Of a stretch of DNA of 42,475 nt, positions 3,998 through 42,475 are shown piece after piece. The position numbers and the translations under genes are program-made. The notes under the pieces are model-generated. The model had not been told where the DNA came from. It worked only from the letters and a program-made list of their open reading frames with translations, and did not search any database. The stretch spans positions 1-42,475 of the IMG/VR virus record IMGVR_UViG_3300031576_000127; one strand, written 5' to 3'. This stretch comes from a virus. Numbering within the stretch: position 1 is the first letter of the stretch; each line of letters starts with the position of its first letter.

Positions 3998-4429
3998 ATG
4001 CCCGGACCGGCAAAGACACCGCGCCAATTCAAGTTGATCGCGGGTACGCTACGGAAGCACCGCGAGAGGGGACTCGAAAACCTCCCCGAGTTCCCCACGA
4101 TCGGGCATGGTGCGTTCCCGGCGCCGCCGCAGCATATGAACCCCGATGGTGCCAGGCTCTGGCGCGAGCTCGGCGCATTACTGGTCGGTGCGGGCGTGCT
4201 TCAGCAGCCGGATCTCTATGCGCTCGAGCAGCTCTGCTACGCTTGGCAGCGTTTTCAGGGTAAATTCAAGGCGGGGATGGAGTTCACGGCCTCGGAGGAC
4301 AATGCGCTCAAGGCGCTCTTCGCGGAATTCGGCCTCACGCCGGCGGCGCGACGGCGCGTCGTCTCGAACCTCGTCGAACCGCCAAAGGCGAATCCATTCG
4401 CGAAGCACGGTAAGCGCCCCGTATCCTGA
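3998..4429 (+). CDS. terS: Terminase small subunit, P27 family
   Basis: The 143-residue product matches the P27 (HK97-type) small terminase plan. It starts with MPGPAKTPRQFKLIAGTLR, has a YxLEQLCYAWQRF-type helical core near residues 67-81, and a C-terminal LTPAARRRV motif followed by a Pro/Lys-rich tail. Small terminases recognise the packaging site and load the large subunit. The ATG at 3998 begins the conserved motif and has GGAG seven bases upstream. The stop lies within the region encoding the N-terminus of the large subunit, so the two are translationally linked. Bases 3865-3997 upstream hold no convincing gene. Confidence 0.88.
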   Translation: MPGPAKTPRQFKLIAGTLRKHRERGLENLPEFPTIGHGAFPAPPQHMNPDGARLWRELGALLVGAGVLQQPDLYALEQLCYAWQRFQGKFKAGMEFTASEDNALKALFAEFGLTPAARRRVVSNLVEPPKANPFAKHGKRPVS

Positions 4430-30738: not shown

Positions 30739-31718
30739 TGCTCGATTTCAGCCTCCAGCAGATCGATTGTCGCGTGTTCGTCTTGTCGGTGGCCCTCGGC
30801 CGCGACGGCGACATTCTGCGCGGCTTGGCGGTAGTAGCTCGGCTTGAGTTCGATTCCGACGCCTTTCCGCTTGGCGGTGATGGCTCCATAGACTTCGGAG
30901 CCCACCCCCATGAAGGGGGTCAGGACGACTTCACCTGGGTTTGACCAGAGCGTGATCACGCGGTCGATCACGTCGAGCTGCAGCGGGTGTACGTGTTTCT
31001 CGTCGTCCTGATCGCGTGCTGCCTTGAACGGAAGAACGCGCCCTATCCGCACGTCATCCCAGAAAGCCGAGGCGTACTGTCTCCAGATCCAATGCGAATA
31101 GCGGTTCTCGATCTGGTTGCCTTTCCACCCGCGGTAATGGATCACTTCAGCCGGCGGCCTGCGCTCGCCTGCGTACTCCAGAAGACCGACCGGATGGGCA
31201 ATCGGGATCTTGTTCTCGCCCTTGCGGCGGAACACGAGCAGGTAATCCGCGCTCGCCGCCGAGCAGCGGGAGGAATCATCGACGATCGTCTTGTGCGCCA
31301 AGTTCTTGGCCATCGTGCGATTGCGCACCCCGAGCGGCTCTTTCCAGACCGCATAGCGCGCGATGTAGCGCCAGCCCTCTTTCTCGTGCAGTCGGATGAT
31401 ATCTCCGGGAAAGTCGATCAGAGAATCCGTCCCGCTGTTCCCACTCGGCACGTCCATGCAGTGAACCGCGGTCATTCGGCCTGGATACGTCAGGCGGAAT
31501 AGATCGCGCACCACGAATCTATAATGCTCGAAGAACTGCTGGTAATCGCGGCAATTCGACAAGTCGCGCTCGCTTGAGCTGTAGTGGTATAGCCCGCCGA
31601 ATGGCGGGGAGTAGATCGATAGGTGAACTGATTCCTTCGGGAGTGAAGACATTACCTCGATACAATCTCCGAGATAGATCGCGTAACTGTCGGTGACTTT
31701 CTGCTCCGCTACAGCCAT
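30735..31718 (-). CDS. DNA adenine-N6 or cytosine-N4 methyltransferase, beta class
   Basis: The 327-residue enzyme has the catalytic motif IV SPPF at residues 37-40 near the N-terminus and the S-adenosylmethionine motif FMGVGS at about 269-274 near the C-terminus. That order defines the beta class. The target base cannot be told; SPP is frequent in N4-cytosine and also seen in N6-adenine enzymes. A motif-IV to motif-I span of about 230 residues implies a target-recognition insert. It is coupled to the SNF2 helicase gene by a 10-base overlap. Protection against host restriction is the usual purpose in phages. Confidence 0.85.
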   Translation of the reverse strand: MAVAEQKVTDSYAIYLGDCIEVMSSLPKESVHLSIYSPPFGGLYHYSSSERDLSNCRDYQQFFEHYRFVVRDLFRLTYPGRMTAVHCMDVPSGNSGTDSLIDFPGDIIRLHEKEGWRYIARYAVWKEPLGVRNRTMAKNLAHKTIVDDSSRCSAASADYLLVFRRKGENKIPIAHPVGLLEYAGERRPPAEVIHYRGWKGNQIENRYSHWIWRQYASAFWDDVRIGRVLPFKAARDQDDEKHVHPLQLDVIDRVITLWSNPGEVVLTPFMGVGSEVYGAITAKRKGVGIELKPSYYRQAAQNVAVAAEGHRQDEHATIDLLEAEIEQ

Positions 31719-33127
31719 GCCGGCACCTTCTCCAGTTTGTGGAATGTCCGCGTCTTGTCCACCTTCAGCGCGTCGTTCATATACTCAACGAGCGCAGAGA
31801 ACATCTGGTCCGCTGCGGTGGCTTTGTGTCGCAAGTTCTTCAGTACATTCTGCTCGCCCTCAGTCGTCACGATGTCAACGTGAACGGGCTTTGTCTGCCC
31901 GAACCGCCAACAGCGACGAACGCCTTGGTAGTACTGCTCAAACGAGTGCGAGGGGAAAAACGTGATGTGCGAGCAGTTCTGGAAATTGAGGCCCCACGCG
32001 CCAATCTTGGGCTTGGTGACAAGGATCTTCACTTCGCCGCGAGCGAAGGCGAGGAACATCTCCTCCTTGCGTTCGTCGGAGTCCGAGCCTTTGACTTGTT
32101 CGCTGCCGGTCATTCCCCCTAGCAGGTCGCCCTCGTCGTTCAGGTGGCACCAGACAATGGATTGGCCTTTGTGGCCGGATACCAAGTCCATGACCTTGAG
32201 GCAGCGGTCCACAATCGTGCGGCGGCGTTCGTCGCGTTGTTCTTTGAGGCCGACTGCCGGAAGGTTGAACAGCATTCCGTCAGCGGGCTTGTCCACTTGG
32301 ACTAGGTGCTCTTGCTCGGCCAGCGGCGGCAGGATGAACCGGCCGTCGTCGAAGCCGAGGTCGGACGGGCGGCGTATCGCGCGAGCCCACGAGCATACCC
32401 ACCGCCAGAACGGCGTCTCGGCATGGCCTTTAAAGCGCCACTTCGCGCGGTCGTCAAGTTTCTCGAAATTCATTCCGAAGTGCCGATAGACCATCGGCTT
32501 GATAGTGTTCTGATCGTTTTTGAAAAAGCGTGTGAGCATATCCGTATGCCCAAGCTCGCCAAGCGCCTCGCTGCTCGTCCCTAGTTCGATGTAGTCATTC
32601 GGCGCGGCGGTCGCCGTACAGAGCAGGCGATACGTAATCTTCCGCATGAACTCTGTCACCGCCTGTCGCGTCGCCCCATCAAAGGACTTGAGGATACTGC
32701 TCTCATCACACACCACCCCGGAGAAGTCCTCGGGATTGAGGTAGTGCAACCTCTGATAGTTGATGATGTTGATGCACTTCCGTACCTCGACCACATGGCC
32801 GATACGGTAAGCCTCGATGCCAAACTTCGTCGCTTCGGCTAAAGTCTGATGCGACACCGCGAGCGGAGTCAGAATCAGGACCGGCTTGTTGGTTTTGCGG
32901 ACGACATTTTCGGCCCATACAAGCTGCATCGGGGTTTTCCCGAGTCCGCAATCCGCGAAGATCGCCGCTCGGCCCTTGTGAATCGCCCATTCGACTAACG
33001 CGGCTTGGAAATCGAAGAGGAAGCCTGGCATCCATAAAGGTGGAAAACCGCTCTCGCTGCCCTCATGAATCTTGCGCGTCAGAAACTCGCTATAGCCAAC
33101 GCGTTCATGGAAATCAGGCATCGGCAT
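31709..33127 (-). CDS. SNF2-type DNA helicase/translocase
   Basis: The 472-residue protein shows superfamily 2 motifs. Q-type DFQAALVEWA lies near 39-48, motif I DCGLGKTP near 59-66, motif II DESS at 141-144, motif III TAT (CTATAAPND), and motifs V-VI at the end with WGLNFQNCSHITFF and YYQGVRRCWRFGQTKPVHV. The RFGQ form of motif VI is typical of SNF2 proteins, which move along double-stranded DNA without classic unwinding. It is the second of three tightly linked genes: DUF1064 nuclease, this helicase, methyltransferase. The start ATG at 33127 shares a base with the previous TGA. Confidence 0.88.
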   Translation of the reverse strand: MPMPDFHERVGYSEFLTRKIHEGSESGFPPLWMPGFLFDFQAALVEWAIHKGRAAIFADCGLGKTPMQLVWAENVVRKTNKPVLILTPLAVSHQTLAEATKFGIEAYRIGHVVEVRKCINIINYQRLHYLNPEDFSGVVCDESSILKSFDGATRQAVTEFMRKITYRLLCTATAAPNDYIELGTSSEALGELGHTDMLTRFFKNDQNTIKPMVYRHFGMNFEKLDDRAKWRFKGHAETPFWRWVCSWARAIRRPSDLGFDDGRFILPPLAEQEHLVQVDKPADGMLFNLPAVGLKEQRDERRRTIVDRCLKVMDLVSGHKGQSIVWCHLNDEGDLLGGMTGSEQVKGSDSDERKEEMFLAFARGEVKILVTKPKIGAWGLNFQNCSHITFFPSHSFEQYYQGVRRCWRFGQTKPVHVDIVTTEGEQNVLKNLRHKATAADQMFSALVEYMNDALKVDKTRTFHKLEKVPAWL

Positions 33128-33537
33128 CAAACTACTGTAACGGCCGTTCCGTGCAGCGCCTCGAACAACCGCGACTTAATGAGCCATAGCCCGTGCGCTG
33201 GCGTGCGCTCGTACGTGCGGCGATCGGCGTCGCACTTGAACCTCGGCTTTACGTCCTCGACGATCCGACGCGCGAACGGATCAGCGGCGATCCACGCAAA
33301 GTACATGAAGTCGGCTTCATAGGTCGCGATGACTCGGCCATTGAGGCACAAGTCGAAGCGCGGATGGTGCTCCAAGCTTGAGATTTCGCCGGCCTTTTCG
33401 AGGAGCTTGAGGTCGCTATAGCGCTTAGCCTCGCGCTTCGAGTCGAACATCCTGCCGTCGCTCCGAACCGTGACGTTGCGGAACTTCGAGCCGCGCGCCT
33501 TTAGCTTCCATTTGGCTGTGATCTTGCGAATCATCAT
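33127..33537 (-). CDS. DUF1064 nuclease-like protein
   Basis: The 136-residue protein has the DUF1064 plan: KFRNVTVRSDGRMFDSKREAKRY near residues 18-40, then a PRFDLCLNGRVIATYEADFMYF strand block and a VEDVKP motif. E36, D76 and E94-x2-K97 (or D95-x-K97) form a PD-(D/E)XK-like set, so endonuclease activity is probable. Family members are discussed as Holliday-junction-type or structure-specific nucleases. Its TGA shares a base with the helicase ATG, so the two may act together on DNA. Confidence 0.8.
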   Translation of the reverse strand: MMIRKITAKWKLKARGSKFRNVTVRSDGRMFDSKREAKRYSDLKLLEKAGEISSLEHHPRFDLCLNGRVIATYEADFMYFAWIAADPFARRIVEDVKPRFKCDADRRTYERTPAHGLWLIKSRLFEALHGTAVTVV

Positions 33538-38069: not shown

Positions 38070-38521
38070 GTCTCCTCCTTGGCGTTTACCGGCTCCCAAT
38101 ACGCGCGGAACTGCGCGAGGAAATACGCGCGCCGAGCCGCGAGATCGGTGGTCTCATCGCGCTTCCTCTGGATCTCGCGGTCCATCTTCGCGAGGATATC
38201 CGCCTTGTTCACGTCGAGCTGATCGTCGTCGATCGCCTTGATGATCTCGACGTCCTTGGTCTGTGCGTTGAAATAGACGAACTGGACGCCGACGTTATGC
38301 CAGTCGGTCTGGAGGTACGCGACGATCACGGTCGGGAGCTTCTCGAACGGCTCGAACCCGACGACCGTACCGGCGTAAACTTTGTGACTCTTGTCCGTGT
38401 AGCCCTCCGTTCGAAGTACTTTCACGCGATCGCCGATGCGGATCTCCTCGATCCTCCGAGCGTGGCGCAGATCGACCTCAAGCTTAACGCCGTTCACTTC
38501 GATGATGGTTCGTTCGCTCAT
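38066..38521 (-). CDS. Conserved early protein, 151 aa (KOW/SH3-like barrel plus helix)
   Basis: The first 80 residues form an all-beta small barrel: TIIEVNGVKLEVDLRH, IRIGDRVKVLRTEG, KVYAGTVVGFEPFEKLPTVIVAYL. The middle (VEIIKAIDDDQLDVNKADILAKMDREI) and end are helical with charged heptads. The pattern IGDRV-KVL followed by G-x-V-V-G is like KOW or SH3-type nucleic-acid-binding folds. It lies between the exonuclease and the annealing-type gene with four-base overlaps on both sides, so it should be a recombination accessory. The ATG at 38521 was chosen because the conserved barrel begins there. Confidence 0.65.
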   Translation of the reverse strand: MSERTIIEVNGVKLEVDLRHARRIEEIRIGDRVKVLRTEGYTDKSHKVYAGTVVGFEPFEKLPTVIVAYLQTDWHNVGVQFVYFNAQTKDVEIIKAIDDDQLDVNKADILAKMDREIQRKRDETTDLAARRAYFLAQFRAYWEPVNAKEET

Positions 38522-39588
38522 TTGGCTTTCCTCCTGGTTACGTCGACCCGCCGCAGGACGCGGTGCTGAGACTCGACGGTGTACTTCCGGGCGAGCTCCG
38601 GCAGCTCCTCGCGGAACTTGGCCTGATCGAGGTGGCTCGAGCTTTGCAGCTTCCAGGTCGCATAGGGTATGCCGCCCCAAAGAAGCACCGCATCCTCTTC
38701 CGGGGTCTCGGCGACCGCCTGTTTCCAGGCCGCCTCGCGCGCCGCCTTCGCCCCCAGAATCAGCTCGGCCGGGGGAACGCCCCAGGCGTTCCGGACGTGG
38801 TTCAGAACGGCGAACTCGCGCTCGAGGATCCGCGACTCGTTCGTCGCGTTCGCCGCGCGGAGCATCATGATGGCCGCGACCGCGCCCATGGCCTCGGGCG
38901 TCAGGTCGACCGGCTTGCCGCGATGTCGCTCGTAAAGTCGCCGGATGTCCTCGACGCTCCTCGGCTCCGGCGGGACGCGATCGATGACGAGCCGCCAGAA
39001 CTTGATCGCCTCCGCGCGCATCCACGTCTCCGGGATAGAACCACGGAGGATCGGGTAGCAGAGCAGCGTATCGACGCCGAAGAGCACGGCGAGCAGACAG
39101 GCCGGGCGGTCGGCGATCATCATCCCGTAACCGACCTGGGCGGCGTACTCGACGGGGACCTCCTCCTCGGCCTCGTCGCCCCAGCCACGCTGCAGGAACC
39201 AGTACGAGGTCTTGATCTCCCCGTTGAGGACCGTCCCGTCGGGGATCAGCGCGAGGCGCGGGAAGCGCTCGCGGACCGCCGGCGTCATCGGGAACTCGAA
39301 GTCGATCTCCGCGCGCATCCAATCGTACTCGCGATCCGCGTACCTGTTCGGCTCGCCGCCGTAGGACAACTTCGAGACGAGGACCCCTTCGTCGGCGAGC
39401 ATCTCCGCGACGACCGGCTCCTGACGCTTGCGGCGGCGGAAGAAACGTTCCTTCGCCGGATCGAGTGCGCGCGGCGGATCCTCGGAGAGCTTCGCGGTCC
39501 AGCAGTCGAACGGCGTCCGCCGCTTGTCGAGCCCGAGAACGGCCGCGATGTCCCCAGAGCCCAGGTAGCGGCGGCGATCAACAGGCAT
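38518..39588 (-). CDS. YqaJ-type viral exonuclease, PD-(D/E)XK
   Basis: The 356-residue protein has the YqaJ signature: YLGSGDIAAVLGLD at residues 8-21, E57 in the QEPVVAEML helix, D96 in MRAEIDFEF, and E124-x-K126 in NGEIKTS, with Q151 in EYAAQVGYGM. These lambda-exonuclease-like residues hold two metal ions for 5'-3' degradation of one strand, leaving a tail for annealing. It pairs with the annealing-type gene two genes downstream, as YqaJ does with RecT-like proteins. The ATG at 39588 has AAGGA eight bases upstream; one at 39597 has no spacing. Confidence 0.87.
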   Translation of the reverse strand: MPVDRRRYLGSGDIAAVLGLDKRRTPFDCWTAKLSEDPPRALDPAKERFFRRRKRQEPVVAEMLADEGVLVSKLSYGGEPNRYADREYDWMRAEIDFEFPMTPAVRERFPRLALIPDGTVLNGEIKTSYWFLQRGWGDEAEEEVPVEYAAQVGYGMMIADRPACLLAVLFGVDTLLCYPILRGSIPETWMRAEAIKFWRLVIDRVPPEPRSVEDIRRLYERHRGKPVDLTPEAMGAVAAIMMLRAANATNESRILEREFAVLNHVRNAWGVPPAELILGAKAAREAAWKQAVAETPEEDAVLLWGGIPYATWKLQSSSHLDQAKFREELPELARKYTVESQHRVLRRVDVTRRKAK

Positions 39589-39796
39589 CGTCCGCATCCT
39601 TCGCTCTGCTCTCCGCCCTGCGCCGCGCTTCCTCGTGGCCACGCTCCGCCAACTCGCGGGTCTCGTATAGATCGGCCGCAAAGGCGACACCGGGCAAGCC
39701 ATCGGCGTATTGGATCATCGAGAGCCCAGTCACGGGATCGCGGTAAATCACTCGCACGCGCTGGACGAGCCAGGAATCACCGAGCCAGGCGGTCAT
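39578..39796 (-). CDS. Small early protein, 72 aa
   Basis: The product starts MTAWLGDSWLVQRVRVIYRD with a short beta-hairpin pattern (VTGLSMIQYADG), and ends in a charged helix (RELAERGHEEARRRAESRA). It overlaps both neighbours, the 52-residue gene by 20 bases and the exonuclease gene by 11. Such small proteins often accompany early recombination genes. No name can be given. Confidence 0.58.
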   Translation of the reverse strand: MTAWLGDSWLVQRVRVIYRDPVTGLSMIQYADGLPGVAFAADLYETRELAERGHEEARRRAESRAKDADDAC

Positions 39797-41215: not shown

Positions 41216-41240
41216 AACGAGCGGAACTTGTGCCTATAAT
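41211..41240 (+). promoter_or_regulatory. Rightward early promoter
   Basis: TTTACA (41211-41216) and TATAAT (41235-41240) are spaced by 18 bases, a good sigma-70 promoter. Transcription would begin near 41247, almost exactly on the ATG at 41248, giving a leaderless first message. The -35 box overlaps one arm of the GGTTTAC inverted repeat. Confidence 0.75.
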
Positions 41241-41247
41241 CCGCCCC

Positions 41248-41460
41248 ATGCCCGCGGACATGTCGAAACCACGTCAACCCGTCGTGGAGGAGGCCATCCG
41301 CCGAGCGGGCGGTGCCGCGGCGCTAGGGCGCGCGCTCGGCATCACGAAGGTCGCGGTCGGGAAGTGGCGCCAGGTCCCAGCCGGGCGAGTTCTGGACGTC
41401 GCCCGCGTGACCGGGATCGGTCGCAGTCGGCTTCGCCCGGACCTCTACCCTAGATCGTAA
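41248..41460 (+). CDS. Cro/YdaS-like transcription regulator, 70 aa
   Basis: The short protein has a helix-turn-helix of the YdaS/Cro type: VVEEAIRRAGGAAALGRALG, then the recognition segment ITKVAVGKWRQVPAGRVLDV. It should bind the inverted repeats in front of its own gene and switch the divergent promoters. It is the only DNA-binding repressor-like gene in the window; no partner CI with a protease domain was found. Two ATGs (41248 and 41260) are possible. The first coincides with the predicted start of transcription, so a leaderless message is likely. No Shine-Dalgarno is seen for either. Confidence 0.78.
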   Translation: MPADMSKPRQPVVEEAIRRAGGAAALGRALGITKVAVGKWRQVPAGRVLDVARVTGIGRSRLRPDLYPRS

Positions 41461-41668: not shown

Positions 41669-42427
41669 ATGGCAATACGCAAGCTGGTCTCGAGAAGCGG
41701 TGCTTACCTGCCGCTCTACGTCGGCGACTACCTGCGCGACACGCAGCACCTCTCCCCCGCCGAGGATGGCGTCTACCATCGCCTGCTGATGGCCTATTGG
41801 GCCGCTGGCGAGCCGCTCCCGGCCGACGACCGCAAGCTCGCTGCCGTCGCTCGTGTGCCCCTGGACGACTGGCTCGGGACCTACAAACCGGCCATGCTCG
41901 AGTTCTTCCGCCCGAACGCCAAAACGTGGCATCAGAAGCGCATGGATTGCGAGCTCCAATTATGGCGTGAACTTTCGCAGCATAATCAAGCGGCTGGCAG
42001 AGCCAGCGGACGAGCACGCGTTCAACGAGTGTTCAACGAGTGTTCAACGAGTGTTGAACCCCCTGACCCTGACCCTAAGAAGAAAGCAAGAGATTCTCCG
42101 CCTACGGCGGAGCTTGCCCTGATCGGGCAAGACCGCATCCCCTACGATCAGATCGTGCAGCTTTACCACCAAATGCTACCCATGTGCCCAGCAGTCAAGA
42201 AATTCACCGAGCGCCGGCGAGGCTTGCTACGGGCACGCTGGCATGCCGGCGAGCTACCGGACATGGAAACATGGCAGAAGTACTTCGCCTACGTCGCCAG
42301 CTCGGAGTTCCTGACGGGCCGCACGACGCCGAAAGGTGATCGGCCACCGTTTCTAGCCGACCTCGAATGGCTCTGCCGAGAAGGGAATTACGTCAAAGTG
42401 TGGGAGGGGAGATATCATCATGACTAA
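41669..42427 (+). CDS. DUF1376 replication-type protein, carrying iterons in its coding sequence
   Basis: The N-terminal 100 residues are a DUF1376 domain: LPLYVGDYLRDTQHLSPAEDG near residues 10-30, GVYHRLLMAYWAAGEPLP, and the RVPLDDWLG end. This winged-helix-like domain is found at the lambda O position of many phages. The C-terminal half is variable and ends with KYFAYVASSEFL and a WLCREGNYVKVW block. Residues about 118-131 are encoded by three direct 11-bp repeats, so the gene probably contains the origin, as lambda O does. It continues past the contig joint into 1-106. Bases 41461-41668 in front hold no clear gene. Confidence 0.85.
   Translation: MAIRKLVSRSGAYLPLYVGDYLRDTQHLSPAEDGVYHRLLMAYWAAGEPLPADDRKLAAVARVPLDDWLGTYKPAMLEFFRPNAKTWHQKRMDCELQLWRELSQHNQAAGRASGRARVQRVFNECSTSVEPPDPDPKKKARDSPPTAELALIGQDRIPYDQIVQLYHQMLPMCPAVKKFTERRRGLLRARWHAGELPDMETWQKYFAYVASSEFLTGRTTPKGDRPPFLADLEWLCREGNYVKVWEGRYHHD
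42020..42060 (+). repeat. Iteron array within the DUF1376 gene (candidate replication origin)
   Basis: Three perfect tandem copies of GTTCAACGAGT lie at 42020-42030, 42031-42041 and 42042-42052. They are followed by GTTGAACC (42053-42060), whose GTTGAAC is the inverse of the core GTTCAAC. Tandem 11-bp repeats inside a replication-type gene are the design of lambdoid origins, where the encoded protein binds its own gene. Confidence 0.7.
42096..42131 (+). other. Two adjacent perfect hairpins next to the iterons
   Basis: CTCCGCC/GGCGGAG (42096-42102, 42106-42112, TAC loop) and CTTGCCC/GGGCAAG (42113-42119, 42125-42131, TGATC loop) abut without a gap. A purine-rich, relatively AT-rich stretch (about 42076-42095) lies between them and the iterons. 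They are inside the coding frame and not followed by T runs. They may belong to the origin or be primer/helicase loading structures. Confidence 0.55.
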
Positions 42428-42447
42428 GCAGAAGTTCGACAGTGCCG
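42322..42447. repeat. Terminal direct repeat, right copy
   Basis: This segment repeats bases 1-126 exactly, containing the last codons of the DUF1376 gene and the start of the next gene. It is the overlap expected when a circular phage genome is assembled into a linear contig. Confidence 0.95.
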
Positions 42448-42475
42448 AACTTCTGCTTAGTCATGATGATATCTC
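42409..42475. repeat. Fold-back inverted repeat at the contig end
   Basis: Bases 42447-42475 are the exact reverse complement of 42409-42437 (29 bp), with nine bases between. The same 29 bp also occurs at 88-116. The palindrome interrupts the copy of the 143-residue gene and lies at the very end of the contig, as a chimeric or fold-back read would produce. It is most likely not part of the natural genome. Confidence 0.85.

Follow-up and report, generated by a model that had tools for sequence, protein, structure and literature searches.

A DUF1376 phage gene as a probable O-type replication initiator that carries its own origin

In this study, we performed a computational analysis of a viral DNA stretch of 42,475 nucleotides (hereafter the window) and of the relatives of one of its genes, a DUF1376 gene located close to its 3' end. 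Our analyses suggested, with a probability of about 85%, that this gene codes for an O-type phage initiator and that its coding sequence also contains the phage origin, the protein binding its own iterons, in a variant of the lambdoid origin. The basis of this reading was taken from sequence, namely the parts of the module and their order, their recurrence across the family, the constraint acting on them as DNA, and the co-inheritance of the iterons with the N-terminal domain. The features concerned are as follows.

41230–41460, plus strand: YdaS/Cro-like regulator gene upstream of the initiator gene (PF15943, 5.6e-13; P22_Cro, 3.3e-7), given for context only
41669–42427, plus strand: predicted initiator gene, 252 aa, comprising DUF1376, a linker and an O-like C-terminal domain
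41705–41956, plus strand: part coding for the DUF1376 domain, aa 13–96 (PF07120, 1.5e-20), a predicted winged-helix-like DNA-binding domain
42020–42059, plus strand: iteron array of four 11-bp units, GTTCAACGAGT three times and GTTGAAC, with the near-palindromic core GTTnAAC
42061–42076, plus strand: CCCTGA repeat of 2.7 units, at the place where the family has its 6-bp tract
42077–42093, plus strand: purine-rich stretch AAGAAGAAAGCAAGAGA, a candidate unwinding region by analogy with the lambda tract
42096–42112, plus strand: hairpin 1, CTCCGCC-TAC-GGCGGAG, with a 7-bp stem and a 3-nt loop
42113–42131, plus strand: hairpin 2, CTTGCCC-TGATC-GGGCAAG, with a 7-bp stem and a 5-nt loop, abutting hairpin 1
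42128–42421, plus strand: part coding for the C-terminal O-like domain, aa 154–251 (phrog_345, 'replication initiation O-like', 1.6e-20)

The match of the protein to PF07120 scored 73.8 bits against a curated cut-off of 30.1, and the Pfam search of its N-terminus returned DUF1376 only and no phage O replication-protein family. Residues 143–250 also matched phrog_5810, annotated 'replication initiation protein' (1.6e-22). In an AlphaFold2 model built on an alignment of 54 relatives, the N-terminal domain reached a pLDDT of about 97 across most of residues 21–90, and the C-terminal part was of low confidence. The helix order of the modelled DUF1376 domain was compatible with a winged helix followed by a long helix. 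Most of its top structural matches were winged helices (Z 5.5–7.3 over 76–83 residues), including ORC2, plasmid RepA-type initiators (4pql, 4pt7, 5kbj) and DnaD, and a Foldseek comparison with the PDB gave no matches at E < 0.001. As the Z scores are middling, the fold assignment is short of certain, and the model makes DUF1376 a likely winged-helix-like DNA-binding domain.

The iterons are located in the linker DNA between the DUF1376 domain and the O-like C-terminal domain. The original prediction had described three perfect tandem copies, an inverted GTTGAAC half-site, a purine-rich stretch and a pair of perfect hairpins that abut, all within one reading frame, and most of this description was reproduced: exact copies of GTTCAACGAGT begin at 42020, 42031 and 42042, the purine-rich stretch and the two exactly abutting hairpins lie at the positions listed above, and the one open reading frame spans them all. 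The half-site had to be reinterpreted. Since the core GTTnAAC is self-complementary except at its centre base, GTTGAAC at 42053–42059, which keeps the same 11-bp register, is better taken as a fourth copy in direct orientation, with a single C to G change. The array was the top tandem repeat of the window (TRF score 73; the next, 43); at shift 11 it scored 26, compared with 8 for the next-best place in the 42 kb and with a maximum of 18 among 1000 synonymous-codon shuffles of the initiator gene over all shifts from 5 to 40. Because a period of 11 is not divisible by 3, the copies fall in different reading frames, which marks the array as a feature of the DNA, not a repeat of the protein. The CCCTGA repeat next to it is GC-rich and is followed by the purine-rich stretch. 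A pair of adjacent stems as long as those of the two hairpins occurred in one of 1000 synonymous shuffles of the gene, and the folding of this stretch as single-stranded DNA gave z = -4.4.

Related genes had been proposed as a check on whether such repeats recur at the same place, and they were found there, strongly and widely. A scan of viral contigs with the window protein alone as query found no relatives, whereas alignment A1 did find them; two scans with A1, supplemented by twelve phage records, brought together 172 genes hit by DUF1376, counting that of the window, and clustering at 70% identity reduced these to 116, 110 of them usable. Periodicity was counted as exact 7-mer matches per shift in the 60 codons after the DUF1376 domain, and the 110 non-redundant genes yielded 252 matches at shift 11 (8.7 ± 3.9 in synonymous shuffles) and 501 at shift 6 (78 ± 18). 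Shifts 12, 18, 22–24 and 33–35 were elevated as well, and shifts 7–10 and 13–17 were not comparably so. Strong shift-11 arrays were present in 36 of the 110 genes and in none of 191 other ORFs of at least 180 aa from the same loci; the corresponding counts for shift-6 tracts were 53/110 and 3/191. About half of the DUF1376 genes were without either array at this strict threshold, and looser spacing was common. In all 22 genes that scored well for both, the 6-bp tract was placed 3' of the iterons, often abutting them. Tract units include GATACA, TTCACC, AATCAC and CCACAA; the tracts had a GC content of 0.38 compared with 0.555 for the genes, were low in GC in 62 of 68 cases, and had a coding strand in which G made up only 10% of the bases. 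DUF1376 genes thus carry a conserved origin-type repeat module, whose function as an origin is suggested by its architecture and by analogy.

Five Bradyrhizobium loci (L006, L098, L105, L112 and L114) had short DUF1376 genes that stop soon past the repeats (160 aa in L006, 183 aa in L114). These genes seem to be without the C-terminal domain, which a separate gene may supply. In addition, O-like genes with other N-terminal domains and a C-terminus of the same kind carried similar linker repeats (L178, 2108–2818; L179, 1994–2788; L180, 2015–2794), the linker of L180 combining 11-bp CCGAACGATCA units with a GAGAAG tract. The presence of such repeats under other N-terminal domains makes the origin within the gene appear to be a general plan in which the N-terminal module and its iterons are exchangeable.

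Hairpins also recurred in the family: stems of at least 7 bp within 70 nt after the tract were found in 15 of 66 genes (2.1 expected). The exact twin arrangement was rare, with 5 cases in a strict search across the gene set (stems of at least 6, gap of at most 6; 1.45 expected) and 3 within 90 nt of the tract (1.2 expected), which does not establish it as a general family feature; the enrichment is one of single strong hairpins. Alternatively, the hairpins could function in the mRNA, through pausing, antitermination or stability and independently of the iterons, and the tract perhaps likewise. The hairpins do form on the coding strand, they are enriched after the tract, and between the variants AGTCCATCTGACGATGGACT and AGTCCTACTGACGTAGGACT (L206 and L204), just upstream of GTTGACGCTTCG, a double change preserves pairing. 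The fold data do not separate RNA from single-stranded DNA, and the position beside the iterons together with the analogous dyad of the lambda origin fits a role in DNA, so we regard the mRNA explanation as rather unlikely, though the best placed of the alternatives.

The type of iteron was observed to be linked to the N-terminal module. The core classes were AACG/CGTT, AGCA/TGCT, TGCA, GCAAA, GCGA, AACA and CCCA, and with six below-threshold genes (the window included) assigned to class AACG by eye, a tree built from the N-terminal domains required 27 changes of class, compared with 45.4 ± 1.9 when the labels were shuffled. Comparing pairs coarsely, at an N-domain identity of 55% or more, did not separate N-linked from C-linked inheritance of the iterons, but binning by identity did: among pairs with unrelated C-termini, the shared fraction was 0.17–0.34 below 60% N-domain identity and 0.55, 0.59, 0.70 and 0.89 in the 60, 70, 80 and 90% bins. 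Correlation of N-domain residues with the iterons ranked columns A46, A42 and K73 highest; as these values are uncorrected for shared descent, we do not claim a recognition code. The iterons adjoin the N-terminal module in the same gene and are therefore linked to it by descent too, so that binding by DUF1376 is what we infer from this association. These data also bear on the explanation that the repeats are operators for transcriptional control, exerted by the protein or by the upstream YdaS/Cro-like repressor, with the origin lying elsewhere. The regulator gene is adjacent, the array is found about 350 bp into an early gene, and cores that are nearly palindromic would be suitable sites for many repressors; operators would nevertheless not be expected to track the DUF1376 domain in class, to be followed in fixed order by an abutting low-GC 6-bp tract and hairpins, or to be placed between a DNA-binding and a helicase-recruiting domain in many unrelated phages. 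We consider this explanation improbable.

One set of Pseudomonas phages was the clearest case of a natural exchange of modules. In their mosaic initiator genes (L197–L217, around position 2501), three N-terminal modules, DUF1376 among them, precede the same C-terminal module, and every one of the three brings repeats of its own; the exchange point falls in or just past the 6-bp tract, and the shared C-terminal module starts near the hairpin AGTCCTAC-TGAC-GTAGGACT. Although this exchange point, the variable tract copy number among the near-identical genes L179, L183 and L191, and the tolerance of low-complexity linkers for repeats would suit linker repeats, above all the tract, that are by-products of slippage or points of module exchange with no direct replication role, the 11-bp period shared by differing sequences, the near-palindromic cores and the fixed order are left unexplained, and we give this account the least weight of all. 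Within the reading as an initiator with an internal origin, we put forward, tentatively and as a possibility that may well prove wrong, a three-part origin code that this widespread class of phages would share and that would be located in the initiator gene. Its parts would be 11-bp iterons specific to the domain, a hexanucleotide tract with strand asymmetry, to be read as single-stranded DNA in unwinding or helicase loading and analogous to the DnaA-trio of bacterial origins, and hairpins that would travel with the C-terminal helicase-recruiting module.

The ends of the window overlap by 126 bp (bases 1–126 equal 42322–42447), so it represents a circular phage genome with a unit of 42,321 bp, despite which the class of the record is not given as circular. 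Its last 33 bases, within 42322–42475, are a near-perfect fold-back of 42409–42441, probably an assembly artefact. Among 50,697 phage records, no close DNA relative of positions 4000–28000 was found. One gene past the initiator gene, at 409–1488, lies a DUF5131 protein (phrog_2045) with weak likeness to a radical-SAM mobile pair protein, and genes for a DNA helicase, a Holliday-junction resolvase and a RecE-like exonuclease (31709–33130, 33127–33537 and 38518–39702, minus strand) form a recombination set on the strand opposite to the initiator gene. The cumulative GC skew of the circular genome had its minimum at about 0.5–1.3 kb and its maximum at about 30–31 kb. The minimum expected near the gene was thus found, within about 1.5 kb of it, but it coincides with a switch in gene direction, and no skew change occurs at the antipode, on either side of which the skew of plus-strand genes is about equal (0.059, 0.031, 0.061). 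As both extremes coincide with such switches, GC skew was ruled out as proof of an origin and neither supports nor refutes one here.

Comparison with known systems points to lambda as the closest parallel. Midway through gene O, lambda has an origin made up of iterons and an AT-rich tract (PMC7466680); the lambda record shows four iterons, then a purine/AT tract and lastly the dyad GTCAGAG...CTCTGAC. Lambda and its lambdoid relatives, such as Stx phages, share with the window origin-type repeats in the initiator gene between two domains, the order of near-palindromic iterons, a tract (purine/AT-rich in lambda, GC-rich and then purine-rich in the window) and a dyad (PMC7466680), an O-like C-terminal domain and a regulator gene upstream. 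The differences are that lambda iterons are 18 bp long at 20–24 bp spacing, compared with one every 11 bp in the window, that the DUF1376 family typically has a 6-bp repeat tract, and that no loader gene was found in the window phage with the profiles searched. Furthermore, as the N-terminal DNA-binding domain is DUF1376 and not that of O, the window system would be a variant of the lambdoid type, not a lambda O protein.

YdaU of the E. coli Rac prophage is itself a DUF1376 protein, with a linker carrying GTTCAAACA repeats spaced by 33 bp and a GATACA/GATAAA tract. In the gene order racR-ydaS-ydaT-ydaU-ydaV, ydaS lies upstream of ydaU, as a YdaS-like regulator lies upstream of the window gene, and a DnaC/P-like gene, ydaV, comes next downstream; the C-terminal domain of YdaU differs from that of the window protein. 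The origin of the Rac prophage, oriJ, is active but repressed (PMC3945230). Its position relative to ydaU was found neither in the annotation of the K-12 record nor in the literature searched. A further analogue, by description and not by sequence, is the replisome organizer G38P/oriL of phage SPP1, which comes with an origin-binding protein of its own. There, a phage protein that binds the origin organises the assembly of the replisome at this discrete site (PMC3485210). Lastly, the iteron-binding winged-helix initiators of plasmids (the N-terminal domain of staphylococcal RepA, 4pt7 and 5kbj, known as an initiator–DNA complex) and DnaD resemble the predicted winged-helix-like fold (Z 5.5–6.4), with no sequence similarity detected and with Z scores in the range of unrelated folds.

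The context of the relatives is in keeping with replication initiation. A scan of 65 downstream genes identified 12 DnaC-like loaders, 11 P-like loaders and 2 DnaB-like helicases, and the gene next after DUF1376 encodes a helicase loader or DnaB in about one third of the relatives. The proposal that the DUF1376 protein is an initiator acting on its own gene thus draws support, by sequence comparison and analogy, from the recurring repeats, the O-like C-terminal half, the loader or DnaB genes downstream of many relatives and the lambda order of parts. As a mechanism, several DUF1376 domains would bind the 11-bp iterons just 3' of their own coding region; since the spacing is about one helical turn, they would sit on one face of the DNA. 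Strain from the bound domains may then melt the adjoining low-GC or purine-rich tract; because the 6-bp tract of the window is GC-rich, its unwinding region is uncertain. Subsequently, the C-terminal O-like domain would bring in the replicative helicase. The window genome gave no matches to DnaB_C, IstB/DnaC or phrog_19, in a genome-wide search that lambda-P profiles lay outside, and the initiator would therefore have to recruit the host DnaB. In relatives, this recruitment may involve a DnaC-like loader, a P-like loader or a DnaB encoded by the phage. Once the strand is exposed, the hairpins past the tract may fold on it and either hold it open or mark the place where helicase or primase is loaded. 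Helicase recruitment, with or without a loader, and the role of the hairpins are the least secure of these steps.

DUF1376 is officially a family of unknown function. Its members, YdaU of Rac included, occur in phages and prophages of Proteobacteria, of cyanobacterial hosts and of others, and in the literature searched, none of the publications mentioning DUF1376 dealt with replication origins, judging by their titles and abstracts. The present comparison gives the family a specific and testable role, that of a replication initiator, together with a likely origin position for each gene. The DNA-binding domains paired with their candidate cognate repeats provide material for a recognition code. 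In addition, a simple rule for finding origins in raw phage sequence follows, namely to look in the initiator gene for a linker in which an 11-bp periodicity stands beside a 6-bp repeat.
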